Virus record (IMG/VR): IMGVR_UViG_3300030117_004487
Coordinates: 1-48,923 of that record
DNA from: a virus
Reading direction: 5' to 3' (one strand)
DNA: 48,923 bases
Each line of letters opens with the position of its first letter. Within the stretch, counting starts at the first letter, position 1. A program made the translations under genes and the position numbers. Of this stretch, positions 14,131-48,923 are shown in pieces. The notes beneath the pieces were generated by a model. The model worked only from the letters and a program-made list of their open reading frames with translations. It was not told the origin of the DNA and did no database searches.

Positions 14131-17100
14131 ATGGCTAACGAGCTGAGTACCAAGTGGACATACCCGCTTACCATGGTAAGCCAAGATAAACGGGTACCTC
14201 TTCCAGGTGTGCTTGACGGATATGCTGGCGAGCTTTCTGGAGTAGACGGTTCTGTTCAGGGTGGACTTAGACCCTTCTCTGGATTCAAGACAGTCTACGA
14301 GCTCAACTTCTTTGCCAACTCAAACCACAACGAGAACTCGTTCGTTACTGATTTCTTCCCTGTCAACTTCAAGATCGACTTTGACTCATACGGGTACGGG
14401 TTTGTTTACCGTGCACAACGTCAGACCTCAGCTGCAACCGGTAGTGTCACCTTTGCCGAGAAAGCCTCTGACGGGGACAAGGTTACAACTACTTCCACAG
14501 ATGGCACGAAGAAGACTTACCGGGGATACAGTGGTTCTACTCACGGATATTCAACCGGTAGTACAGGCAAAGCAGATCTCCGATTCGAGTTCCTGAAAGC
14601 GGCTGCTATTGGAGGATCTATCCAGCTCGTTTCAGAAGATGGGTACACTCGAACCTATAAGGGGGTGGATGACGGTCGTGCTACCAATGGTGACTACGAT
14701 TCCACTGATGGCACCATTCTCTTCAATGTAGGTGGTACTGAACGTAGACTCATTGCAGACTCCCAAGAGCTAACCACTACAACCGGAACTGGGATCACTA
14801 CCTCAACCCCAGACCAACTGACTAGTGCTAGTGGGGAATCTGGGACAACTGGGACTGCTACTACTTCGACTGAGGGTCTGACAACTACTGACACAGACAC
14901 TGAAACTTTGGTGGGGCAGACTTACCAGGATTCTTTCCAAGACAGTAACTTCCAAGTTACCTCCTACTCAGGAGGTACTGGAACAGATGTTCCCGCAGAC
15001 GAAAGATATCTAGATACCGGTGATGGGTACCACCCAACTGCAGGCAGAACGACAAAGCCCCTGTCTACAATAAACATTGATTCGGTGACCAGTATTGACG
15101 GCAAGACTGTGATCTTTGCTGACGATACTAAAACCCACACTATCACCTTCGATGCTGCTAGAAGTAGAAACTCATCAGGGATTGCAGCTTCTACTACGAT
15201 TACCCAGATTGAGAAAACAGCAGCCACCCTTAATGGCAAGACGGTAATTCTCACAGACTACGAGAATACTTCCCACACAATTACGTTTGATAACACAATC
15301 AACAAGTCAGAGTCGGCAGCTTCTGCAACTCTGACGGTGGCTAATGCAACTTCTCTCAACGGTCTAAGCATCATCGTTGAGGATGCGGGTGACCAGACTC
15401 ATACTATTAGCCTTAGTACATCCGTTACCCAGGGTAATTCTACTACGACGGTTGCGGGAATCTCTGGAGCATCCACAACTCCAGAGGTTATGACTTCGAT
15501 CAAGAAGTCTCTCGAGCTTGCAATTGCAGCTGGGCTCATCAACATGACTGTCGAACAGTCTACTGGTTCACAGCTCAGGCTCACTATGGGGACCAAGGGT
15601 ACTACTGGAAACGGTAAGGTAATTACCGGTACTGCAGTCTCTGGTGCAAAGGTAACTGTTACCACCTTCTCTGGAGGTAACTCAGGCTCTACCCACAGCA
15701 AAGCTGGACTTGCCGACTCTGATGGCACCACCTTGTTTGCAGTCGAGTCACTGGCGGAAGCAATTAAGTTGGCTGTTGCAGCAAGCAAAATCAAAGTCAA
15801 CGTAGGAACACCTACCAGAACTGCAGCCTCTGCTACTTTTACATTTGGGGACACCGAGTTTGATGACCAGAACAAGGGTACTTGCACTCTTGTAGATGCT
15901 GCTGGTACCAGTCATACCTACTCCATCCGCAATGACTACTCAGCATCTACGAATGATGCAGCTGAAGCAAACTTTACTTTCCACACCTCTGACTACAACA
16001 GCGTAAACGATGCGTCTATCACACTTGTAGATACTGACGGACTTACGAAAACTTTTGTTGTTAAGAATGACTTTTCCGCTGCTGCGCGAGAAGCAGAGGC
16101 AGAGATTGACCTGGGAGACACGAAGTTTGACGATGTAAACTTTGCCGAGGTAACCATCACTGACGCAGTGGGTACTGGTAAGACCTACCGTATCCGTAAC
16201 GACTATGGTGCTACGACATCCAGCAAAGCTGTGATGACCTTTACCTTCGACGCTTCCAAGTTCAATACACAGAACAATGCAACACTGAACCTGGTAGATG
16301 CTGCTGGAACGGGTCGAGCATACAAGATCAAGACCGACTACTCAGCAGTAGATTCCCAGCAGGAGTTCAACGCTGGTGCGAGCTCTGATGTAGCTGCAGC
16401 AAACTTCGTAGCCATCGTCAACAGTGCGAATGGCCATAACGGTACTCTGGTTGCAACCGCTAGTGGCTCGACCGTGCAGGTAATTCAGAACACTGCCGGA
16501 GCGACGGGTAACACTACGATTACCCCTAGCTTCAATCCGTACTGGAACTCGACTACTAGTGCTGACGTTCCTTTGCAGTTCGTGGGTGGAGGTTCGGTGG
16601 AATTCAACGCGGGGGCAAACGCTGCGGCTGCTGCAGAGAACCTGAAGATTGCAATTAACAGCTCTGCTGGACATAACGGTACGATCACTGCTACCAGGTC
16701 GGGCAACATCGTGAAGATGGTTATGGGAACTGCAGGGTCTGCAGGCAATACCCCAATCACTACGTCGCATAACTACGACTTCAATGATGTGACTGATACG
16801 GCTCTCCCCACTAGTTTCGTTGGAGGAGACTACATCGAGTTCAATGCGGGTGCGAGTGCTAATGCAGCGGGGGATAACTTCGCGATTGCGGTAAATGCTT
16901 CTGGGTTGAAGATCGACGCGACTAACACTTCGGGAGCTGTTGCTTTAGTGCAGGAGGTGTCAGGATCTACTGGCAATACCTCGATTACCAAGTCTTCTTG
17001 GGATTCTGTTACCCAGGCTAACGCACCAAGTGCATTCAGTCGTGGAGGATTTGCAGAGTTCAACGCCGGAGCAAGTGCCACTACGGCTGCAACTAACTTC

Positions 17101-20100
17101 TGCATTGAAGTCAACAAGTACCAAGGCTCCCAGATCGTTGCGTCCAGCGTAGCAGGTGCAGTTACCCTGTCCCAAAAGACGGGTGGTGCATCAGGTAATA
17201 CCACCATCACCACGGACTCAGATTGGAATAGTTGCATTGAAGGAGGGTCTATGCCCTCTACGTTTACCACCGGTGAACGGTCTACACTTCGACTCTCCAT
17301 GGGTTTGGAAGGCACTGCAGGAAATAGCAAGACCATTACAGGCACGAACATCTCTGGGGGTCATGCCTCAGCGAGTGCTTTCTCTGGAGGTGCCCTTGGA
17401 TCTACTAATGCAATTGCAGGCATCCTTGGCCTCACAGACCCAGGTGAGATTCTAACCTCTCTTAGGACTTCTCTTAACGCTGCAATCAATGCTAAGTTGA
17501 TTAACTACCACACTCTTGGTCAGAGTTACTTTGACGATAAGTTTTTCAAGATCTTGATGGCAGAATCAGGATCTGAAGGAGAAGGCAAGAGGATTACAGG
17601 TACTGCAGTAGGTACTCCGGCAACAGGCACCGCAACTATCGGTGCTTCTGTTACTCAAGCCAATTTGAACGGCAAGACATTTATCTTCCCTGTAAATGCA
17701 CACACAATTACATTTGACGATTCCCTGTCTCAGACTAGCAGCACTTCAACCAAGGCAGGCATCAAGGATCAAACAACAGCCCAGGGGCTGTTGGAGTCGT
17801 TGCATAGATCCACAGAACTTGCAATCCGTGCAGGGTTAGTAGTCTCCACTGAACCCCTTGGCGATCGGGTAATGACGATCAAGTCAAAGGCTACAGGCAC
17901 AGCTTACAATTCCCAGAACTTTACGGGTACTGCAGTGTCCGGTGGGTTTATTAGTAGTGGTGCATTCAGTGGAGGAGTAGCTGGAAGCAATATTACTGCT
18001 ACCCCGTTTGAAGGTGGGCAAGATATTTCCAGTAACCTTGTGGCTGCATCGGAAGCAGCAAGCAACCTCAAGGAAGCAATCGACTCGAAGATGGGCCACA
18101 ACGGTAAGTGCTCTGCCTCATTCACGTTTGGTGATACAGAGTTCAATGACCGTAACTTTGCAACGATTGAACTAACTGACACCAACGGTAAGACTGTCCA
18201 GTATCGTATCCGTAATGATTATGGTGCTGTATCTGCAGGTACTGCTACTTCCGCCAGAGCTCAATTCCAATTCACTGGTGCCATCCTTGGCTGGAACAAT
18301 AACGGGACAATCAAGCTAATCGACGGAAACAATAAAGCAGTCACCTACACCTTGAAGGTAGGAGAATCTGCTGACATCACTAAGAACGAGTTTGAAGATG
18401 GGGCCAACGGAACAGAAGCTGCAACTAACTTTGCAGCAGCAGTAAACAGTTTCTATGGACACAATGGAACAATCACTGCGTCTAGTTCTGGAACAGATGT
18501 AACCCTTGTGCAAACTGTTACAGGCACCGCAGGTAACACTTCCATCACGACTGCTAATTTGAATTGTATTGATGCCACTCTTGGAGATTCTCCTCCTTCT
18601 AAGTTCCATGGTGGAGGCTCAATTGAATTCAATGCGGGTGCAAATGCAACTGTTGCGGCTACCAATCTTGTTATTGCCATCAACGCCAGCACTGGGCATA
18701 ACGGAACAATCAAGGCTACCAATACAGACGGCGCAGTGACTCTTGTGCAGGATACTCCTGGTTCCGAGTCTGCTATGGAACGACCCATTACTGACTATGG
18801 GTTTATGCGTTTGAACATGAATGGATCTGCAGTTCTTCCAACAGCCTTTGAGCTGACTGCAGTAGAAAACTATAGGTTTACCGTAGAAACCTTCAGCACC
18901 TCAACAAGTGGTGCTACTAGTCCCGAGCTGGTAATCACCCAAAAAACTACGGGGACTGCAGGACACACTAAGATCACTAACTTCAACTCGTTTGCTGCAA
19001 AGCTAAACGTGAAGTCCCTTGCTTCTAAGTTTGAAGGCGGAAACGACATCATGTTTGATGTCGGAAGTTCTGCTACAGACTCACGAAATAACTTCAAGAC
19101 TGCAGTAGATGGAGGAACTGGACACTCATCTAAGTTCTCTACCTCTGTTTCTGAAGAAGGTTCCAATCGAACTATGGCAATGTCTCAGGCTGTAGCAGGT
19201 AATGCTGGCAATACAGACATTGATATCTCAGTGAAGCCGGGAACAATAGCCGGTCCTGTTATTAGCAAGGTGGCGTTCAGTGGTGGGTCAAACCGAGAAG
19301 GTGATATCTTCTTGGACTTTTACCACTCCAAATGCCAGGCATGGTCTTACGGTAACCTCATCAAAGAAGGTACAAGTAGCACTGAAAAGATCGACGTGGT
19401 ATCAACGGGCAGAGTTGTAGTAGTTGGTATCCGGGGCGAGTCTCCAGTTACTTTCTACGTAACTAAACCTGAGTGTGAAGACTCTTCATCTGAGGTAGGT
19501 ACGTCAGATGCTTGTCCAACAACTGCCACTAACAATCCTATCGGTACAAACACGGTAGATTGTTTTTATGACTACAGCATTGTGATTGAGACTGCACCTG
19601 GTCCTGGTGTTGCTCCTGATCTGCAAGGCCCCGAGGTATGCCAAACGATTTCGGGCGGAGGAATTGGATCTCCGGGTAACGAACAGTTCTTTAATGCTGC
19701 TTCTGTATTTACTACTGAGATCCCTTCAAACCTGGAACAGTGTGCAGACGGAACTATTGTTCTATGTGAGTCTCTCATTGACGAAGGTTTTTATCCCGGT
19801 AACGATTCTGTACCAACAGGAACATTTAGTAATTTCCCTGAGCCACTGTTCTTTAGGTCCGACGAAACTCTTGCCGAGATTCTTGGTTATGGAGAATCAG
19901 ATGAAGGGGTAAGCGGTTTCTTTAGTTCAAACGATTTGATACTTACATCTGACGAAGAAGACCAACCTTACTTCTCTAGTCTTCCAGAGGGCAGTGTAAA
20001 CCAGCTACTTAGGATTCCTGAAGAGTTTGGAAACGCATCTTCTGCTGTACAAAGAGCACTCAATAACTTTAAGATGCAGGAGATTCCTGAAGTTACAATC

Positions 20101-23100
20101 TCGATCGGTCCTGGAACTTATTTCCCGCATCCCCACAGCGAGTTGTCCGTAAACAGAAAAAAAATACTCGGACATACCGTAGGCAACTCCCCAATTGTTT
20201 TGAGTACCGATGATGAGATCAATAGCTTTATCCAGATAACAGATGTGTTCGGGGATGAGCACAAACTAGTATTCAAAGACAGTGAGACTGCTAGAAAGTA
20301 TCCCGGATCTGAGACTCGTATTGATCGTGGTGCTACTGCTACTTGGACCTGGATTGAATCCGCTGAAGAGGCATCTCAAATTACACTCTTTGCGGCTGGT
20401 GCAGTAAGTGGAATTACATACCGTGCAGTAAATGACGATGGCCCCCATGAAACGGGAGACCTTATCACTGAAGGGGTTGTTGCATTCCGTAGGGGTGACT
20501 CGTCGGGGTCTGTTTCGGATAGGGTCTTGAACTGTGCCTTGCAATTCAAAGCTGCAGTTGAAGGCACCAATGGTCACGGTACCTCCCTGCTAACTGTTGC
20601 TTGCAACGCAGGACAGGTCACGGTGTCCCAGGTCACTAAGGGATCTAGTGGGGAAACTTCCATCTCCTTCAGCACCAGCTCCGATGTTTCTTCCTTTGTA
20701 AAGCAATGCAATCCCATACCTCCCGCTAAATTTACTGGAGGGGTGGAAACTAATGTTTACCACTCTTATATAAATTCTGCTTGGGATTCAGATTCTGATG
20801 CGGCCGACACCCTTAGAGTCAGAAAAATCTACAACTCTATGTTCCATGCCTTTAGAGGTACGGTTGTAGGTACGGATGGCGTATTTATAAATGAGGATGT
20901 AAGTACCTTTGACTCATTAGGTCGAGCACCAAACTCATCACTTCCTTTTGGTAACGCCGGTGCGGGGGGAGGATCTGAACTAAGATATAGTTCTCAAAAT
21001 CTTCCTACCCAACTTACTTCTTTTGCTACTAAGTCTGGAATCACTTTTGCTTGGGGTACGCAAGGTACCTTTGGTGGTGGCACACCTATTGAGGAACAAG
21101 AATGGACAATAGGGTTCTTTTCCAATCTTGGCGGTTCCGTTAATAACCGAATCAAAGTAGAAACAAACATAGAAGGAATTGTTGGACAAGAGGGTTACCC
21201 AGATAGCCCTGAATTTTATGACGGTCTTAGCGATTCAGGTACTACTTCAATATCCTTTGTGACTGGAGCTCCTACAGATGGGGCTACTATCACTCTAAAG
21301 AACACTTACAACCAGGAATTCAAGTTTAGGTTTAATACTTCTTCTACTACGCAAGACGGAAGTAAAGAACTTGTAGGTGCAGATAAGGTTTATACGGTTG
21401 GTATTAAGGACCAAGAAACACCAGCACAAATTGCCCAGGCTTTCTACAAGGTACTAGACAAAGAGAAACGCAATACACGAATTATTCCTACTGTGGTAGG
21501 CACGGTATTTACCTCTATTGATCTTACTCAGCTTGTGCCTGGTGGAGGACCAAACACTCTTATTGAGCCAGATGGCACTGCTTATACAGATGAGGAAAGG
21601 TCACTCTGGGCTTCACAAGAAGGCCATCTGACTATTACTAACGGTAATACTGAAGTGGTCTTGAGTGGTGACAGCACAAACAACATTGTTATATCTAACT
21701 TCTCTGGGGGCACTTCTATATTGGCCCCCCTATATGCCCATAACGATCAAGTGGACAGTGACGTAACGACTGCCTATGGCTTAAATACAAGCGATCAAGA
21801 TAGGTACCTTGCAAAACCCCATTGTTTTATTCCCTTGGGTACACGAACAATGGCCTCTCAAACAAGGAACTTAGACCAAGTAAACATTAAGGGTAGGTAT
21901 GGGGCAAACAATACGATCTTCGACTGTTTCCATATGCCTGGTTCTTACCACGGACGTGCAGTTACAGGAATTGAAAATCCTCATAGGCATCCTGCAAACT
22001 ATCACCCCTTCTCTTTTCTCCAAGATAAAAGAGATGCGACTGCAACTTCCGGAGCTACTCTCTATAACCCTCAATACAAGGTAGTTGTAGAAGGATTAAC
22101 CGTACAAAATGTGGGAGACCCCCACAACGCTTTGCCTGGTCTAGATGCAGATAACATCACTAGAAGGCCAAACCTTGCAGCAGCACAGATCAGGGAAGCA
22201 GAGACTAGGTTTGAAAAGTGTTTCTTCAAAGACAACTCTGCAAGTGCTATTCTTAATATTGACACAAACCGTCTTAGCGTGGACTTTGCTAGGGACTTAG
22301 ACATTAGAGGATGTGTTTTCTGCAACAGCCGTAAGTTTGGTTTTGAACGGTATGAAGAAAACGGTAGATGTCTTGAAACAACCTTTGAGAATACTCCTAC
22401 CCTTACGACCTATGTTTACCACTTAAGTTTGGTAGATCCAGTATGCACTCCTGATGGAGCGGCTGTACAAGATCTGCAAATGGTAGATAACCAGATCGGA
22501 GGAGATGGCCAATGCTTTAACAGGTTTGTAGCAGAGTGTGGTGATTTTGGAGGCTCAGTACTTACGACTTCGTTTACCGATGTTTATGGAGACGTAGACG
22601 TAGCCGAGTTTAATATTAACGATCACGTTCTTCATGCAGGCATCTTGCCTGGAGGTGTAATCTACCCGGGGCAAAGTCCTGTAGCACAGAGTCTCTGTCT
22701 TTACGATGTAGACACAATTCCTCAAGGAGAGTATGTAGACCAGCTGGGCGTAATCAAAGCTTTTGTCTATATGTTCAATGACGCTGATATAGATAAGTTT
22801 GCTGTAGATGTGTTGATGTGCAAGGCGGACGAGAACGGGGAGTTTGAACCTCCCAAGACTGTGGTCCACGGTGCTAACTTGGTTCTTGATAATGGTCCAA
22901 AATCATATGACGGTGCTTACCCAGGTAATGGTTGGACCTCAAAAGTAACTAATGACCAAGGAGGTCAGTTTGCTGCCTTCGTAGATTACGGTCTAAATGA
23001 TGAGGATATTGGTGTAGATGAATTTGTTTTAGAGGTAGATAGAAGTTCTCTTGGCAACAACATTACCAATGCTACTGCTTATCAGGTATCAATTAATATT

Positions 23101-25311
23101 GCTCCTCAGTTCTCTACTTTGCAGTGGCAACCTGGGACCTACAAGATTGTTCTAAGAGTTCGACCGGTGGGCTATCAGGATTTAGATGTTCTTGGTAATG
23201 CTAGAACTGAAGTTGCAAACTTCACTGTACAACCTGACTTCTGTTTCTACGGGATTGACGAGACTCGCGAACAAGTCAAAGACCGCAAGAAGCTGGAAGC
23301 AGGCGACTATGTGTTTGCCTACCAGTTGTATGACAGCAAGAGTGGTAGACGCAGTGCTCTTTCAAAGGTACTCGAGGTAAGGGCATCAGACTTCTCTGCA
23401 CTCATTGGAGAAGACAACCAGACTTCTATTCCTGAGTCAGTATTAGAGGGGGCTACTAAGCACGCAATCCTCGACCTGGTCTACGACTCAGACAAGTACG
23501 ACTACGCTTACATTTACAGGTCTGTAAATACCCGTAACGCTACTGGTACTTTCTCTGCTGGAGTCCTGTCCCTTGACGGACTAATCAAGTTGGCTGACTA
23601 CAACATTGTTGGGCACCAGCCAGAGACTACTACTGCGTTCAAGAGGTCTGCATACGTATATAAGTTGGGAGATCTAGAGTTGATCTACCAGCGTACCTAC
23701 ACCCAGGGTGCTGCGATCTTTGATGAACGTATGCCATTCGGTGGTGAGCTTGACTGGTATGACGGCACACTTCTGATGTCTTCAATCAACAACACCCCCG
23801 TGTCTTCTACGGACACTACGGGCACACAGGTGGTTGAAAGCTTAGGGGAGTTGCGGTGGTCTTCAATGACTGAGAGATCGCCTGAGCTGTTCTCGCCTAT
23901 GGATAGATTTGTACCTTCGATCCCTGCTAATGAGATTATCAACCTGACTCGATTGGGTGGATCGGTAATCGGATTCAGCAAGGACCGCATGTACCATATC
24001 CGTAAGGAGGGTGGCGGAAGTTATGGTTACCTGCGTCTGCTTGAGATGCACGAGGGCTTTGGTACTCCAGGTCAAAATACCGCAGATACCGTTGCGTCTA
24101 CCATCTACTTCCTCACGACCAAGGGCATTAAGGCTGTAGATGCTCAAGGTAAACTCGACGATGTACGGGGATTCGACTACTACATCACCAACGAGTGGGC
24201 AGGTAGTAACTTTGACAACGCCTCTGTAGCCTTCGATCCAATCTCTTCAGTCCTGTATGTGCTCAATCCTGACAAGGAAGAGGCAGCGTGCATGTGGTTC
24301 AACACCGCACGGACTTCTCTCCTGAAGGACATGAACTTCACTCAGGTCAAGAAGGGACCGTGGGTATCCGACCTTGCGGACTACAACTCGTCACTGGTGG
24401 AGCGAGCAATGTTCCTTCAGAACGTGCCTACTACTGCTACTGCAGCTGACGGTGTCTCAGGATACAAGCCTCGCATTGTGGTCCACGACTACGCCTACTC
24501 AAAGACCATCGAGGCTTCTGGGTCCTATAACGGACAGCGTCGTGTAACCATGATGGACGGAAAGGGAGACACTAGGCTTACCCTTCTAGCCAATAGCACC
24601 CACCCTGCCAGCAAGTCCAAGTTGAAGATTGACGTGTCTACCGACCAGGTGGGAGACCAGTGGGTCGGCAGTTACCTCTACGTACTCAATTCCGCCACAG
24701 GATCACTAGTGGGGAATAAGGCCAAGATCCTCGAGATCGTGAATGCCCAGAACCGTACCTACACTTCGACTGATGGCGGAGATACCTACATCATCGTTGA
24801 GGGCACAGACTTCCAGGGTCTGGCTGCTGGCGACCGGGTAGGGATCTCTCCTATCTACTTCAGGTGGATTGGGCACCCGACAGGCATGAGTTCAGACTCG
24901 GGCCAGAAGTTTGCGGGCATCGACTTCCACCGCACAAAGCATCTGGAAGCAGCCGGTGCCAGCTTCATCGATGTCAGTGGACCCCCTTCTACTGACTCTA
25001 CAAATACCGACTCCAAGTACAGGGCTCTCGCTTTCTCGGGGTCTAACCTGACTCCGGCAGAGAAGGTTCTTATCAAGGACTTCTCTGGTGCATTGACCAA
25101 GTCTGTAGCAAACGGAGCCGCAACACATTGGGCAGCCTTTGGTGCCGATACTTCAAGCATTGCTATGCAAGGGTTGTACGGTATCGAAGGTCCAGCACTC
25201 ACTCCTGGACTAGAGGTGTTCTGCCCAGACCTTGATTTCAGATTGTTATCGGTTCTTGTTACTGGTAAGATTTTGTCATCTGACCGCACTAACCGGGGAA
25301 CCGTGGAGTAG
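14131..25311 (+). CDS. giant tail nozzle protein (T7 gp12-like) with inserted beta repeats and beta-helix
   Basis: 3726 residues, ATG 14131 after AAGAGGAACTGAG. Residues 1-107 resemble the start of T7 gp12-type nozzle proteins (GVDGSVQGGLRPFSGFKTVY, then YGYGFVYRAQRQ). Residues about 3038-3726 look like the rest of a nozzle propeller (AGDYVFAYQLYDSKSGRRS, LDWYDGTLLMSS, FLTTKGIKAVDAQGKLDDV, SDLADYNSS). Between them lie more than 2900 residues: Ser/Thr-rich spacers (110-300), beta repeats (about 310-1700), a Cys-containing module (1730-1900), a right-handed beta-helix that starts near 1980-2000 (VTISIGPGTYF) and seems to resume at 2586-2740 (VNIKGRYGANNTIF; VVVEGLTVQNV; DLDIRGCVFCNS), and a beta-sandwich (about 2800-3030). 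It may combine nozzle, side-fibre and depolymerase roles; no separate tail fibre gene is seen. Confidence 0.75.
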   Translation: MANELSTKWTYPLTMVSQDKRVPLPGVLDGYAGELSGVDGSVQGGLRPFSGFKTVYELNFFANSNHNENSFVTDFFPVNFKIDFDSYGYGFVYRAQRQTSAATGSVTFAEKASDGDKVTTTSTDGTKKTYRGYSGSTHGYSTGSTGKADLRFEFLKAAAIGGSIQLVSEDGYTRTYKGVDDGRATNGDYDSTDGTILFNVGGTERRLIADSQELTTTTGTGITTSTPDQLTSASGESGTTGTATTSTEGLTTTDTDTETLVGQTYQDSFQDSNFQVTSYSGGTGTDVPADERYLDTGDGYHPTAGRTTKPLSTINIDSVTSIDGKTVIFADDTKTHTITFDAARSRNSSGIAASTTITQIEKTAATLNGKTVILTDYENTSHTITFDNTINKSESAASATLTVANATSLNGLSIIVEDAGDQTHTISLSTSVTQGNSTTTVAGISGASTTPEVMTSIKKSLELAIAAGLINMTVEQSTGSQLRLTMGTKGTTGNGKVITGTAVSGAKVTVTTFSGGNSGSTHSKAGLADSDGTTLFAVESLAEAIKLAVAASKIKVNVGTPTRTAASATFTFGDTEFDDQNKGTCTLVDAAGTSHTYSIRNDYSASTNDAAEANFTFHTSDYNSVNDASITLVDTDGLTKTFVVKNDFSAAAREAEAEIDLGDTKFDDVNFAEVTITDAVGTGKTYRIRNDYGATTSSKAVMTFTFDASKFNTQNNATLNLVDAAGTGRAYKIKTDYSAVDSQQEFNAGASSDVAAANFVAIVNSANGHNGTLVATASGSTVQVIQNTAGATGNTTITPSFNPYWNSTTSADVPLQFVGGGSVEFNAGANAAAAAENLKIAINSSAGHNGTITATRSGNIVKMVMGTAGSAGNTPITTSHNYDFNDVTDTALPTSFVGGDYIEFNAGASANAAGDNFAIAVNASGLKIDATNTSGAVALVQEVSGSTGNTSITKSSWDSVTQANAPSAFSRGGFAEFNAGASATTAATNFCIEVNKYQGSQIVASSVAGAVTLSQKTGGASGNTTITTDSDWNSCIEGGSMPSTFTTGERSTLRLSMGLEGTAGNSKTITGTNISGGHASASAFSGGALGSTNAIAGILGLTDPGEILTSLRTSLNAAINAKLINYHTLGQSYFDDKFFKILMAESGSEGEGKRITGTAVGTPATGTATIGASVTQANLNGKTFIFPVNAHTITFDDSLSQTSSTSTKAGIKDQTTAQGLLESLHRSTELAIRAGLVVSTEPLGDRVMTIKSKATGTAYNSQNFTGTAVSGGFISSGAFSGGVAGSNITATPFEGGQDISSNLVAASEAASNLKEAIDSKMGHNGKCSASFTFGDTEFNDRNFATIELTDTNGKTVQYRIRNDYGAVSAGTATSARAQFQFTGAILGWNNNGTIKLIDGNNKAVTYTLKVGESADITKNEFEDGANGTEAATNFAAAVNSFYGHNGTITASSSGTDVTLVQTVTGTAGNTSITTANLNCIDATLGDSPPSKFHGGGSIEFNAGANATVAATNLVIAINASTGHNGTIKATNTDGAVTLVQDTPGSESAMERPITDYGFMRLNMNGSAVLPTAFELTAVENYRFTVETFSTSTSGATSPELVITQKTTGTAGHTKITNFNSFAAKLNVKSLASKFEGGNDIMFDVGSSATDSRNNFKTAVDGGTGHSSKFSTSVSEEGSNRTMAMSQAVAGNAGNTDIDISVKPGTIAGPVISKVAFSGGSNREGDIFLDFYHSKCQAWSYGNLIKEGTSSTEKIDVVSTGRVVVVGIRGESPVTFYVTKPECEDSSSEVGTSDACPTTATNNPIGTNTVDCFYDYSIVIETAPGPGVAPDLQGPEVCQTISGGGIGSPGNEQFFNAASVFTTEIPSNLEQCADGTIVLCESLIDEGFYPGNDSVPTGTFSNFPEPLFFRSDETLAEILGYGESDEGVSGFFSSNDLILTSDEEDQPYFSSLPEGSVNQLLRIPEEFGNASSAVQRALNNFKMQEIPEVTISIGPGTYFPHPHSELSVNRKKILGHTVGNSPIVLSTDDEINSFIQITDVFGDEHKLVFKDSETARKYPGSETRIDRGATATWTWIESAEEASQITLFAAGAVSGITYRAVNDDGPHETGDLITEGVVAFRRGDSSGSVSDRVLNCALQFKAAVEGTNGHGTSLLTVACNAGQVTVSQVTKGSSGETSISFSTSSDVSSFVKQCNPIPPAKFTGGVETNVYHSYINSAWDSDSDAADTLRVRKIYNSMFHAFRGTVVGTDGVFINEDVSTFDSLGRAPNSSLPFGNAGAGGGSELRYSSQNLPTQLTSFATKSGITFAWGTQGTFGGGTPIEEQEWTIGFFSNLGGSVNNRIKVETNIEGIVGQEGYPDSPEFYDGLSDSGTTSISFVTGAPTDGATITLKNTYNQEFKFRFNTSSTTQDGSKELVGADKVYTVGIKDQETPAQIAQAFYKVLDKEKRNTRIIPTVVGTVFTSIDLTQLVPGGGPNTLIEPDGTAYTDEERSLWASQEGHLTITNGNTEVVLSGDSTNNIVISNFSGGTSILAPLYAHNDQVDSDVTTAYGLNTSDQDRYLAKPHCFIPLGTRTMASQTRNLDQVNIKGRYGANNTIFDCFHMPGSYHGRAVTGIENPHRHPANYHPFSFLQDKRDATATSGATLYNPQYKVVVEGLTVQNVGDPHNALPGLDADNITRRPNLAAAQIREAETRFEKCFFKDNSASAILNIDTNRLSVDFARDLDIRGCVFCNSRKFGFERYEENGRCLETTFENTPTLTTYVYHLSLVDPVCTPDGAAVQDLQMVDNQIGGDGQCFNRFVAECGDFGGSVLTTSFTDVYGDVDVAEFNINDHVLHAGILPGGVIYPGQSPVAQSLCLYDVDTIPQGEYVDQLGVIKAFVYMFNDADIDKFAVDVLMCKADENGEFEPPKTVVHGANLVLDNGPKSYDGAYPGNGWTSKVTNDQGGQFAAFVDYGLNDEDIGVDEFVLEVDRSSLGNNITNATAYQVSINIAPQFSTLQWQPGTYKIVLRVRPVGYQDLDVLGNARTEVANFTVQPDFCFYGIDETREQVKDRKKLEAGDYVFAYQLYDSKSGRRSALSKVLEVRASDFSALIGEDNQTSIPESVLEGATKHAILDLVYDSDKYDYAYIYRSVNTRNATGTFSAGVLSLDGLIKLADYNIVGHQPETTTAFKRSAYVYKLGDLELIYQRTYTQGAAIFDERMPFGGELDWYDGTLLMSSINNTPVSSTDTTGTQVVESLGELRWSSMTERSPELFSPMDRFVPSIPANEIINLTRLGGSVIGFSKDRMYHIRKEGGGSYGYLRLLEMHEGFGTPGQNTADTVASTIYFLTTKGIKAVDAQGKLDDVRGFDYYITNEWAGSNFDNASVAFDPISSVLYVLNPDKEEAACMWFNTARTSLLKDMNFTQVKKGPWVSDLADYNSSLVERAMFLQNVPTTATAADGVSGYKPRIVVHDYAYSKTIEASGSYNGQRRVTMMDGKGDTRLTLLANSTHPASKSKLKIDVSTDQVGDQWVGSYLYVLNSATGSLVGNKAKILEIVNAQNRTYTSTDGGDTYIIVEGTDFQGLAAGDRVGISPIYFRWIGHPTGMSSDSGQKFAGIDFHRTKHLEAAGASFIDVSGPPSTDSTNTDSKYRALAFSGSNLTPAEKVLIKDFSGALTKSVANGAATHWAAFGADTSSIAMQGLYGIEGPALTPGLEVFCPDLDFRLLSVLVTGKILSSDRTNRGTVE
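14827..14839 (+). repeat. dispersed motif site 4
   Basis: GCTAGTGGGGAAT in the Ser/Thr-rich spacer of the nozzle gene, read A-S-G-E-S. Confidence 0.7.
15060..19260 (+). repeat. protein repeat region of giant nozzle gene
   Basis: Several divergent repeat types alternate. Type 1: EFNAGAxxxAAxNFxxAVN, then GHNGTxxAxxSGxxVxLxQ and GNTxIT, with copies starting near 16363, 16603, 16840, 17059, 18390, 18628 and 19050, plus a late one near 20500. Type 2: FTFGDTEFDDQNxxTxxLxD, then GTxxTYxIRNDYxA, near 15838, 15975, 16110, 16240, 18120 and 18270. Type 3: SLNGKTVIF, then HTITFDxxxS, near 15090, 15230, 15345 and 17660. The DNA copies differ widely, so this is old duplication kept at protein level, not recent tandem repeat expansion. 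Confidence 0.75.
16803..16815 (-). repeat. dispersed motif site 5
   Basis: Bottom-strand copy ACTAGTGGGGAGA in the nozzle repeat region; the top strand encodes L-P-T-S. Confidence 0.7.
20644..20656 (+). repeat. dispersed motif site 6
   Basis: TCTAGTGGGGAAA in the nozzle gene, read S-S-G-E. Confidence 0.7.
24705..24717 (+). repeat. dispersed motif site 7
   Basis: ACTAGTGGGGAAT, an exact consensus copy in the nozzle C-terminal part. It is read S-L-V-G-N, a different frame from sites 4 and 6. Confidence 0.78.
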
Positions 25312-43419: not shown

Positions 43420-45720
43420 TCAAGCCACAAGCTCACAGTCATACTCGAGTGGGATGTGACGACCGTACAACTCTTGAAGCCAAGACCAGTACCCCTGGTC
43501 AGCTACGTAGGAGATTGCATCGGCAACCAACTCTTTGAGTTTGGGGATCATGTCCTTGTGACAATCAAAGTAGACAGCATCATAGATGTTGAGGAACATG
43601 AATGCCCGTTCCTTGCGTGCATTGAAAGCACTGACAGTCTCGTTGAGTCGTGCCTGGATACGCAGGAGTGTATTACCTGCAGTGGTTTGGATTGGGAAGT
43701 TGACAATCTCGTTCACGTCCCACTTGTCACCACCCATGAAGTAGCGTGACTGACCGGTGAACGGAAGGCAGATGTACCCATAGGTACGTGCTTCATTGAT
43801 ACGTTCCTCTTGCCACTTCCATAGACCAGGTCTGTGGTGTGGGCGTGAGTCAGCTACGTTCTTGAAGAACTCAATCGGATGCTTCTGACCAGTCATAGCC
43901 AGCAGCTGTGATTGCATTGTGGTGGAGCCAGACCTGAACAGGTCAGCAAAGTTAATCATCTTGCCCGCTTGTCGGAAGTCGTTGAACTTAGGGTGACTCT
44001 CAATGTCAGGCCCGAAGATTTGTAGAGCTCTCTGTTTATGGAGGTCAACGCCTTCTGAATAAGCAGCCATGAGTGCTGCATCTCCTGAGAGCAGTGCTGC
44101 GACTCTAAGTTCAATCTGGCTGAGATCGAATCCCAGTATGGAACCGTGCCTGCCGAAGCGGGACTGGATGCAGGACTTGATTGTCTTGGGGAATGTTTGG
44201 GCTGATGGTTTCTTGCAGGTGATGCGGCCTTGAAGTGTCCCGCCTTGGGATCCACCTGAGTCTTTGGCAAAGGTTGGGACGCAGTACCAGGTTGGGTAGG
44301 CGAACTCAACTGGGTAGCCTGACTTAGGGATGAGGACTGATGAACGGTCACTTGGATGGTTCCTGCGATGTCTGAGTAATGGGTAGCAATAGGAGGACAA
44401 GAGCTTCTGACTAGCAGCGTGTCTCTTTGCAAGCTTGAGTGCATTGCGCAGAGGATGGCTGTCAGGGAGAAGATCGGTAAGGAGGTTTCTGTTCTCTTCC
44501 GAGAAGGAGATGATCTTCTGCTTGGGGGTGACGGTTAGTAGCGGGTTGTCCCGAACAGATGTCGTATGCCCACATGAAGACAATGATGATCGAAGCTGCA
44601 AGTATGACTCGGGAGATTGATCTAACAACTCCATCAGTTTCTTGCATTGTTCTGTTGTATGACATTCGATTGTCCCGTCGATTACATCGCAAAGCAGATC
44701 GATGAAGGATGTCTTGGCTTTCCCAGATCCAGGGCCTTCCAGTAGGAGACCATACTTCTTGCTTGAGACTTCTCGACATCGTGTAATTCTTTCTTCCAAC
44801 TGATGCTCGATGCTGGACAGCATCCCTCTGCTCATGGGGATCCCAGACTCGGACATACGAATGCACGTCCAAATGGTATCGGAATAGAATTTCAAACACC
44901 ACGGTTCAAGTTTGTCTGTCCTTGGGAAGTCTTTACAGATACGCCTTGACAGTTCCTGCACTGCGAGCATGGTGTTGTGCGTGTCTTGTGCGTTGTAGGT
45001 AGCAAGGAGTGGGTCGGAGGGAGAAGAGAACTTCTCATCCTTGATGGTTCTGGTGTAGGAATGGGTGCGTAAAACTGGGCCCAAAGATTTCAGAGATTTT
45101 TCTGGACGGGTCTCGTCATGCAGATAGTTGAGCACTGACAGGTCGATCAGTAGCTGCGAGCCATCAAGAACGAAACGGAAGAAGGGATCAGCACGGAGAT
45201 ACTGGAGGTCAAACTGGAGGTTCATCCCCATTATCACGCATGAATGGGAACACCATTTGCGCAGTCTCTCCCTGTGCTCCGGCTTGTTCATCTTGAACAC
45301 CATCGTTTCGCCAGGCTGCAATGAGCTTAGAGATATCCACTCCCATGGCGTAGATGGCTTGGATGAGGAGAGCCACGGTTGTGAGTTCTGAGGAGTTGAG
45401 TGCTCCTGACTCACGTAGTTTCTGTGCTCGGTTGAGGATGTCTTGGTATTGGTTGTTGTCTTCAGCCATGTGTCTTCCTTCGGGATGGTGACTGCAACAG
45501 TCAGGATTGTGTCTTCCAATTTGACCCCGTCAGTATGGAGGGACCGGTTAGGATTGAAGACAGTCTGGTTGTTGAGTGATTCCCCACTAAAGTTTGTGTA
45601 GCAAGCACCGTAGGTCTCGATGTCGAGACTAATGATTCTTGGATCGGTACTTGTGCTCTCGTTCTTCCTCGAGGAGAGCAATCCTTCTTGCTGTATTCTT
45701 GATGTGGAACTTTGAGTCAT
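43420..45720 (-). CDS. family A DNA polymerase with 3'-5' exonuclease domain
   Basis: 766 residues. Exonuclease: SLDIETY (Asp33, Glu35), MNLQFDLQYL (Asp171), YNAQDTHN (Asp246). Polymerase: FDLSQIELR (motif A, Asp532, Glu537), RQAGKMINF (motif B, Arg583, Lys587, Phe591), and NIYDAVYFD (motif C, Asp714). Phe591 matches Pol I Phe762. Motif C reads Tyr-Asp-Ala where Pol I and T7 have His-Asp-Glu, so the second acidic residue is lost. Residues about 84-130, between Exo I and Exo II, are Ser/Thr/Pro-rich where another ORF overlaps. The start at 45720 overlaps the upstream gene by 92 bp; a later non-ATG start is possible. Confidence 0.9.
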   Translation of the reverse strand: MTQSSTSRIQQEGLLSSRKNESTSTDPRIISLDIETYGACYTNFSGESLNNQTVFNPNRSLHTDGVKLEDTILTVAVTIPKEDTWLKTTTNTKTSSTEHRNYVSQEHSTPQNSQPWLSSSKPSTPWEWISLSSLQPGETMVFKMNKPEHRERLRKWCSHSCVIMGMNLQFDLQYLRADPFFRFVLDGSQLLIDLSVLNYLHDETRPEKSLKSLGPVLRTHSYTRTIKDEKFSSPSDPLLATYNAQDTHNTMLAVQELSRRICKDFPRTDKLEPWCLKFYSDTIWTCIRMSESGIPMSRGMLSSIEHQLEERITRCREVSSKKYGLLLEGPGSGKAKTSFIDLLCDVIDGTIECHTTEQCKKLMELLDQSPESYLQLRSSLSSCGHTTSVRDNPLLTVTPKQKIISFSEENRNLLTDLLPDSHPLRNALKLAKRHAASQKLLSSYCYPLLRHRRNHPSDRSSVLIPKSGYPVEFAYPTWYCVPTFAKDSGGSQGGTLQGRITCKKPSAQTFPKTIKSCIQSRFGRHGSILGFDLSQIELRVAALLSGDAALMAAYSEGVDLHKQRALQIFGPDIESHPKFNDFRQAGKMINFADLFRSGSTTMQSQLLAMTGQKHPIEFFKNVADSRPHHRPGLWKWQEERINEARTYGYICLPFTGQSRYFMGGDKWDVNEIVNFPIQTTAGNTLLRIQARLNETVSAFNARKERAFMFLNIYDAVYFDCHKDMIPKLKELVADAISYVADQGYWSWLQELYGRHIPLEYDCELVA
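45209..45469 (-). CDS. overprinted ORF inside the DNA polymerase gene
   Basis: 86 codons in a second frame of the minus strand within the polymerase gene. ATG 45469 follows GAAGGAAGACAC, a good ribosome site. The product starts MAEDNNQYQDILNRAQKLRE and continues as a neat amphipathic helix pair (SSELTTVALLIQAIYAMGVD, ISKLIAAW), then an acidic tail (RNDGVQDEQAGAQGETAQ). Its codons (CTC, ATC, GCC, AAC) look like those of other genes here, whereas the polymerase frame over the same DNA is low-complexity Ser/Thr/Pro. A real nested gene is likely; role unknown. Confidence 0.6.
   Translation of the reverse strand: MAEDNNQYQDILNRAQKLRESGALNSSELTTVALLIQAIYAMGVDISKLIAAWRNDGVQDEQAGAQGETAQMVFPFMRDNGDEPPV
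45579..45591 (-). repeat. dispersed motif site 17
   Basis: TTTAGTGGGGAAT in the exonuclease part of the polymerase gene, read F-S-G-E-S in the gene frame. Confidence 0.7.
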
Positions 45721-47899: not shown

Positions 47900-48619
47900 T
47901 CAGGTAATGAGGTGGGAGGTGTCCATCCCATTGATCCGATCCAGGATTTCCCGACCAGCTTCTGATCCCTCGAGGGCAGCCTCGGCAAGCTTGCCCTTGG
48001 CCTGACGTTCGAGAGATGAGATGTTGCTGAGTGATCGACGAAGTTCGCACACTCGGGTGAAGGCTTCGTTCACCTGGTCTTGAAGGTCTTCGATCTTGCG
48101 GCACAGACGCCACAAGTCATTCAGTTCATCAGTCCTCTCATCCATGTAACCTGGGCCTTCCAGGATGACAGTGATCCGAGGCAGTTGGAACTCTTTGCTG
48201 TTCCAAGTGGCGTCCGAACCCAGTTTCACGGAGACAGTGAAGGACATCTCGATCTTGTCTGGGTTGGTCGAGGATTCATTGAAGTCAGGGGTGCTGACCT
48301 CGTGTTCCACACTGACACCCATGGATCCGAAGACTTCTCTGATCTCCTTGAACTTCTGTTCGAGGCTTGAGATACCCCAAAGGGTATCGAATCCCCCCTT
48401 GTAGAACTTTGCGTAGACACAGGACTTGACCTTGAGGGCCTTCCTGGTCTCCTTCAGTTCCGCATTGAGGTCATCGACTTTGATGTTGCCCTGCTTGATG
48501 AGAACGTTGAGTTCTTGTTCCTTCTTGGATGCAGCGATGGCAACTACGTGGTCGATGTTGACGTTCATGTCGAGACTCATGCTCTCGACAAACTGTTTGG
48601 ACAGGGCATTATCACTCAT
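47900..48619 (-). CDS. hypothetical protein with coiled-coil ends
   Basis: 239 residues from ATG 48619, with AAGGAGCAAGGC upstream; the frame is open further upstream but that part reads as noise and overlaps the previous gene. Order: an N-terminal coiled coil (KKEQELNVLIKQGNIKVDDL), a central beta part (MSFTVSVKLGSDATWNSKEF, PRITVILEGPGYM), and a long C-terminal charged coiled coil (LWRLCRKIEDLQDQVNEAFT). No catalytic motif and no membrane segment. Early gene by position. Confidence 0.65.
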   Translation of the reverse strand: MSDNALSKQFVESMSLDMNVNIDHVVAIAASKKEQELNVLIKQGNIKVDDLNAELKETRKALKVKSCVYAKFYKGGFDTLWGISSLEQKFKEIREVFGSMGVSVEHEVSTPDFNESSTNPDKIEMSFTVSVKLGSDATWNSKEFQLPRITVILEGPGYMDERTDELNDLWRLCRKIEDLQDQVNEAFTRVCELRRSLSNISSLERQAKGKLAEAALEGSEAGREILDRINGMDTSHLIT

Positions 48620-48923
48620 GCCTTGCTCCTTTCTTGTAGATAGGTGCTTCGAATCCCAGCTCTTGACACTCTTTGAGCAGGGAACTACCGAGGATTCTGT
48701 AACTGGCAGAGTAACCACCAGTGAAGTTAGCGTAGTCGGACACCATTGACATGCCGTGTGCGTAGTGTCGCAGGTAGTCGATGGCAGTCCTGTATGTGTC
48801 AAGAGTCCTGACACGTTCAATCATGCCGAGAGAATGTAGGCCATCGAATTGGCTGTTGATTGCACGTATGGTACCGATCGTGGATCCGGTACCTCTTACG
48901 TACCCTCCGAGGCCGTGGTTGTA
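48612..48923 (-). CDS. hypothetical protein, N-terminus beyond right edge
   Basis: Minus-strand frame open from the right edge to TGA at 48612, 103 codons seen. An internal ATG at 48824 has no good ribosome site, and the 33 codons before it (GLGGYVRGTGSTIGTIRAIN, QFDGLHSLG) look like protein, so I treat the gene as partial. The remainder, RTLDTYRTAIDYLRHYAHGM and SYRILGSSLLKECQELGFEA, is helical. Its stop overlaps the next start. No family recognised. Confidence 0.55.
   Translation of the reverse strand, partial: YNHGLGGYVRGTGSTIGTIRAINSQFDGLHSLGMIERVRTLDTYRTAIDYLRHYAHGMSMVSDYANFTGGYSASYRILGSSLLKECQELGFEAPIYKKGARHE

Follow-up and report, generated by a model that had tools for sequence, protein, structure and literature searches.

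In DNA viruses, overlaps between genes on the same strand mostly span only a few bases (PMC8903798). The nearest parallel to the locus described here is found in HBV, in which a disordered spacer of the polymerase shares its DNA with a gene, PreS, read in another frame; ancestry has been argued for PreS1 and most of PreS2, the spacer being the overprinted partner (PMC9093120). The HBV enzyme is, however, the reverse transcriptase of an animal virus, with one fixed overlapping gene and no other insertion sites (PMC9093120), whereas the host gene in our case is a phage family-A DNA polymerase that appears to carry a variety of small genes at several of its loops. Embedded o-spanin genes such as lambda Rz1 within Rz are also nested phage genes, commonly missed by gene callers, and resemble the present case in that a small gene lies wholly within another, in an alternative frame and with its own start (PMC6139136). 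Spanins are paired lysis proteins; in contrast, the nested gene reported here is hosted by a polymerase gene and neither a lipobox nor a transmembrane helix was apparent on inspection of its product. The DNA polymerase of HMO-2011-type phages contains a partial DnaJ domain, an example of the acceptance of inserts by phage polymerases, and this insert lies between the exonuclease and polymerase domains, close to the position that we refer to below as site 3 (PMC9038755). It is an in-frame domain, whereas the inserts of the present group correspond to out-of-frame genes. Finally, in geminiviruses the small gene C4 is nested in the replication gene C1, on which it was overprinted (PMC8160170), but that arrangement has no tie to a loop insertion that is absent from gene-free polymerases. 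In the open literature searched, we found no description of a polymerase into which genes have repeatedly been inserted out of frame.

Here we analyse a 48,923 nt (48.9 kb) stretch of viral DNA, an IMG/VR virus record that we refer to as the window. Our main reading, to which we assign a probability of about 0.87, is that the open reading frame (ORF) at 45469..45209 on the minus strand represents a genuine small gene lying within the polymerase gene, which entered a turn of the polymerase and is read through as a loop in the polymerase frame.

The polymerase gene and the frame nested within it

The window encodes a terminase, an ERCC4 nuclease, a uracil-DNA glycosylase and a Sak4-like gene in addition to the polymerase. 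A 3726-residue ORF at 14131..25311 on the plus strand, very long given the size of the phage, probably encodes a tail or fibre protein. The polymerase gene (45720..43420, minus strand) matched Pfam PF00476 at 8e-26 and PHROG 17 at 1e-48. An AlphaFold model of its product, produced from 28 aligned polymerases, had a mean pLDDT of 84.5 and matched the DNA polymerase I / Klenow fold in Foldseek; the Pol A palm domain, the Exo I and Exo II motifs and the fold together place it in family A. The features discussed below are as follows.

43420 to 45720, minus strand: host gene, a family-A DNA polymerase with a 3′-5′ exonuclease domain, 766 aa (Pfam, PHROG, AlphaFold, Foldseek)
45474 to 45481, minus strand: Shine-Dalgarno-like GAAGGAAG, spelled by polymerase codons for Pro-Lys-Glu-Asp; motif and place are common to relatives
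45209 to 45469, minus strand: nested gene 1, 86 aa, +2 relative to the polymerase, ATG start and TGA stop
45346 to 45465, minus strand: disordered polymerase linker, residues 86-125, in the same DNA as nested gene 1 (pLDDT about 33)
45208 to 45228, minus strand: Exo II motif GMNLQFD, whose Phe-Asp codons provide the nested stop
44462 to 44665, minus strand: probable nested gene 2, likewise +2; its product has a transmembrane segment, and it lies in a polymerase insert of about 40 residues that the relatives of clade A (defined below) lack

A first-pass annotation of the window had pointed to a second minus-strand frame inside the polymerase gene with an ATG, a good ribosome site, normal codon choice and a compact helical product. 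The frame itself was confirmed as an ORF of 86 codons that runs to a TGA stop. A ribosome site is present, since GAAGGAAG (45481..45474) ends four bases 5′ of the nested ATG, but "good" overstates it: the anti-SD energy is −5.7 kcal/mol versus a median of −7.2 kcal/mol for 22 gene starts in the window, so that the site is average in strength, adequate and unexceptional. Codon choice was indeed normal, with a score (based on the window's own codon use) of 0.244 per codon compared to a gene mean of 0.180. None of the out-of-frame control stretches inside genes reached 0.244 (0/125 in +1 and 0/125 in +2). Nested gene 1 was also the top-scoring out-of-frame ORF inside any gene of the window with no other near it, the runner-up entry being an artefact of the frame chosen for the gene at 47900..48620. 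Over the DNA of nested gene 1, the polymerase frame scored −0.027, under the 5th percentile of genes. When the polymerase protein was held fixed and its synonymous codons were redrawn, the nested frame was open in 1.2% of draws; conversely, when it was the nested protein that was held constant, the linker was open in the polymerase frame in 1.5%. As for the product, three helices were predicted, which agrees with a helical protein, but the model was based on two sequences only and had a mean pLDDT of 58, giving moderate support for compactness.

The Ser/Thr/Pro-rich polymerase linker between Exo I and Exo II was likewise confirmed. Residues 86-125 are disordered in the model and are flanked by strands 72-80 and 136-143 of the exonuclease domain, suggesting that nested gene 1 occupies a beta-hairpin turn. 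Overlap with old, conserved polymerase sequence is confined to the 3′ part of the gene, beyond about codon 46. We propose that ribosomes initiate independently within the polymerase message, using the conserved Lys-Glu codons as a Shine-Dalgarno sequence, to make an 86-aa helical protein, and that ribosomes in the polymerase frame would read the nested DNA as a Ser/Thr-rich disordered loop at the beta-hairpin turn located between the two Exo motifs, where additional residues would be tolerated.

The precision of the insert sites within an essential gene would also be compatible with an intron, intein or bypassed segment that is missing from the mature polymerase. This is extremely improbable given that the inserts had no Rfam intron match, that the nested proteins belong to no intein or endonuclease family, and that the polymerase frame stays open and hydrophilic across the inserts. 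No ribozyme, splicing or endonuclease signature of this class of element was found at the locus.

Conservation and selection at site 1

Polymerase-based scans of viral contigs yielded about 70 distinct relatives, about 15 of which have the same start place (site 1), the same +2 frame and the Shine-Dalgarno sequence. The distance from Exo I to Exo II is 132 residues in the window, 155 in L003, 124-128 in clade A (L005-L015 plus L076, excluding L008, which is numbered within this range but belongs to a short group; eight sequences in the analyses) and 137-140 in L054-L067. Each of these long-linker groups has a +2 nested frame that starts 155-161 nt after Exo I, and nested frames were also found in L056, L072 and L154 at 158, 140 and 182 nt, respectively. 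Several further clades have 76-99 residues between the motifs and no supported nested frame. Nested starts at site 1 are preceded by an AAGGAAG- or GGAG-like site, and two members of clade A use GTG as the start codon. In clade A, Lys-Glu-Asp-Gln-Cys is invariant at the edge of the variable linker; of 158 adjacent invariant triplets, Val-Lys-Glu at the Shine-Dalgarno sequence alone has identical codons in all eight sequences, and this despite AAG being the rarer Lys codon in the clade (35%). An open alternative frame with a start and a ribosome site is thus kept in relatives, as in an overlapping gene. The first-pass annotation had named stops in the nested frame beneath a conserved polymerase sequence as the pattern that would speak against the gene; the opposite was observed, in that relatives with the linker retain an open nested frame whereas their polymerase linker sequences diverge.

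A single message carries both frames, and ribosomes might therefore shift out of the polymerase frame to give a fusion to an exonuclease fragment rather than a separate protein. This is highly improbable, as clade A has a nested-frame TAA immediately upstream of the nested start (TAAGGAAGACCAATG), and the ATG or GTG and its Shine-Dalgarno sequence are conserved.

Selection was assessed with a dual-frame test in which changes were classed by their effect in each frame, a simple estimator applied to pairs that are non-independent. The close trio L007, L010 and L015 gave omega (dNN/dNS) estimates of 0.18 [0.08-0.36] for the nested frame and 0.22 [0.10-0.45] for the polymerase frame; when all eight clade A sequences were compared over their core, the values were 0.47 [0.29-0.73] and 0.54, respectively. 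Controls comprising polymerase flanks and three clades without nested ORFs gave 1.05-1.9, with the exception of one wide-interval flank (0.66 [0.26-1.97]). The more distant pair of the window and L003 had a nested omega of 0.69 [0.41-1.14] versus 1.53 and 1.75 for its own flanks, and its nested proteins aligned better than synonymous shuffles (P about 0.009); the shuffle test breaks shared ancestry and was left out for close pairs such as L001/L002. The comparison of rates in the two frames proposed in the first-pass annotation thus indicates, at the level of sequence, purifying selection on the nested frame in clade A and is suggestive for the window's own pair. L054 and L055 showed no dN/dS signal at site 1 (1.14), though their nested proteins are alike.

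These data bear directly on whether a low-complexity Ser/Thr linker has simply left the +2 frame open by chance. Long +2 frames do occur by chance in GC-rich relatives, and some single loci are unremarkable when taken alone (e.g. P(open) 0.21 for L056). We nevertheless consider chance very unlikely, because position and frame are constant across clades, the Shine-Dalgarno codons are conserved, purifying selection acts on the nested frame, and its codon use is gene-like, unlike that of chance frames in GC-rich clades. The long +2 frames of the GC-rich polymerases (L016-L053), which have no gene-like codon score, were set aside as composition artefacts. The window's sisters L001 (5177-5482) and L002 (5180-5488) keep the Shine-Dalgarno sequence and ATG at site 1 with a frame of 101-102 aa that has a polymerase-shaped look and could be either a relic or a precursor stage. 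They were not counted at this site because nested identity is lower than polymerase identity and the codon score is low.

Nested protein 1 of the window has one clear homologue, in L003 (about 35% identity). Profile comparison among the nested families of different clades at site 1 revealed no significant homology, and weak C-terminal matches between families were attributed to the shared polymerase motif. Nested proteins were not found outside the polymerase in phage records, viral contigs or the relatives' whole records, nor with six-frame HMMs, and one scan of bacterial and archaeal genomes recovered no relatives. An embedded spanin was rejected, as inspection of nested protein 1 showed no lipobox or transmembrane anchor, and nested protein 2, despite its transmembrane segment, lacks a lipobox. 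Given how varied the proteins in this one slot are, and that they would be expected to be expressed with a replication gene, our best guess is that nested protein 1 serves host takeover or replication as a small accessory protein of the phage, produced during replication. Proteins of this kind would belong to a group of small phage products that gene finders would tend to overlook.

Order of the two frames and use of the +2 frame

By a published criterion, the older of two overlapping frames is the one with genome-like codon use (PMC3744397). Within the linker, the nested frame outscored the polymerase frame in codon use at all 14 loci compared, and the inserted segment is missing from polymerases without a nested ORF. 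Together these observations favour insertion of a small gene followed by read-through in the polymerase frame, and suggest that the nested frame is primary within the linker and the polymerase linker a secondary reading. The first-pass annotation had instead described a linker bent to carry a nested gene: the gene is supported, but the roles of the two frames in the linker appear to be the reverse. The most likely origin would be a small gene inserted into the turn in the +2 frame, with synonymous choices in that gene keeping the loop free of stops and hydrophilic. Its 3′ part overlaps old polymerase sequence, and the nested tail would accordingly have been overprinted.

The same 3′ overlap would be expected if the linker had begun as a spacer of the polymerase, with the nested gene arising later, de novo, in the alternative frame. 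Such an order, which we regard as possible but rather unlikely, would also be consistent with the presence of the Shine-Dalgarno polymerase codons in relatives without the nested gene (PKE/VEE), with L070, whose Shine-Dalgarno sequence and ATG at site 1 are followed by a frame of just 5 codons, and with the failure to find standalone homologues of the clade A or window nested proteins. However, a frame born within an older gene should be the atypical one beside a typical host frame (PMC3744397), and the reverse was found in the linker at 14/14 loci. Moreover, the linker is absent from polymerases without nested ORFs, the nested gene at site 3 makes up the entire insert, and members of known families (zinc ribbon, GroES) occur among the inserted genes. 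Insertion and read-through, rather than birth in an old frame, would offer a concrete and testable route to gene nesting.

A thymine at the second base of a codon specifies hydrophobic residues. In the +2 frame the wobble base of each nested codon is the second base of a polymerase codon, the base that sets residue class, and nested genes pooled from all sites contain 198 T-ending codons compared to 319 expected. A polymerase-frame stop requires A or G at the nested wobble base, so this deficit of T is not explained by stop avoidance. The polymerase reading was more hydrophilic than the shuffle mean in most inserts, and was both open and hydrophilic through all inserts examined for wobble bias; the nested wobble bases thus keep the polymerase frame open and hydrophilic. 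The coincidence of guest wobble base and host second base would supply a reason for the +2 frame, and a Ser/Thr/Pro-rich loop in a phage protein may be the trace of a concealed gene.

Nested genes at other polymerase loops

A codon-score scan for further nested genes covered 71 polymerases. Nested gene 1 is a clear case in the window, and the ORF at 44665..44462 is a probable second. Nested gene 2 is present in all four members of the window clade (the window, L001, L002 and L003), and its omega in L001/L002 was 0.38-0.41, with an interval reaching about 1.1, versus 1.2-1.6 nearby.

At site 3, a homologous nested gene of 88-96 aa was found in L054, L055 and L070, filling a Ser/Thr/Pro-rich insert between the exonuclease and polymerase domains at window residue 264-268. 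It starts 725 nt after Exo I in L054, 716 nt in L055/L057/L067 and 560 nt in L070, and constitutes the whole insert, with only 2-5 window residues spanned. Its omega was 0.62 [0.33-0.99], and 0.05 among L055/L057/L067, compared to 1.36 nearby. Near window residue 468, different +2 ORFs were identified from codon use only in L065, L068, L078 and L154, two of which resemble membrane proteins.

The guests so far comprise helical proteins, a zinc ribbon, single-span membrane proteins and the conserved 88-96-aa protein. It seems fairly likely that the polymerase gene acts as a docking platform, with unrelated small genes having entered at least four loop sites, all found in +2 and read as disordered Ser/Thr/Pro loops that are kept soluble via guest wobble bases. 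The event proposed for nested gene 1 would then have taken place at three other loops in related phages, and an essential replication enzyme would repeatedly be host to whole small genes, always in the same frame and at definite turns of its structure. Known families are represented in L072, in which the nested gene at site 1 encodes a zinc ribbon (PHROG 33891 at 8e-11), a match that was specific among 30 phage and 14 control genomes. In the same polymerase, a GroES gene (1922-2254; Pfam Cpn10, 6.5e-10) splits the coding sequence into two ORFs at about residue 468, the same loop at which other relatives hold nested genes.
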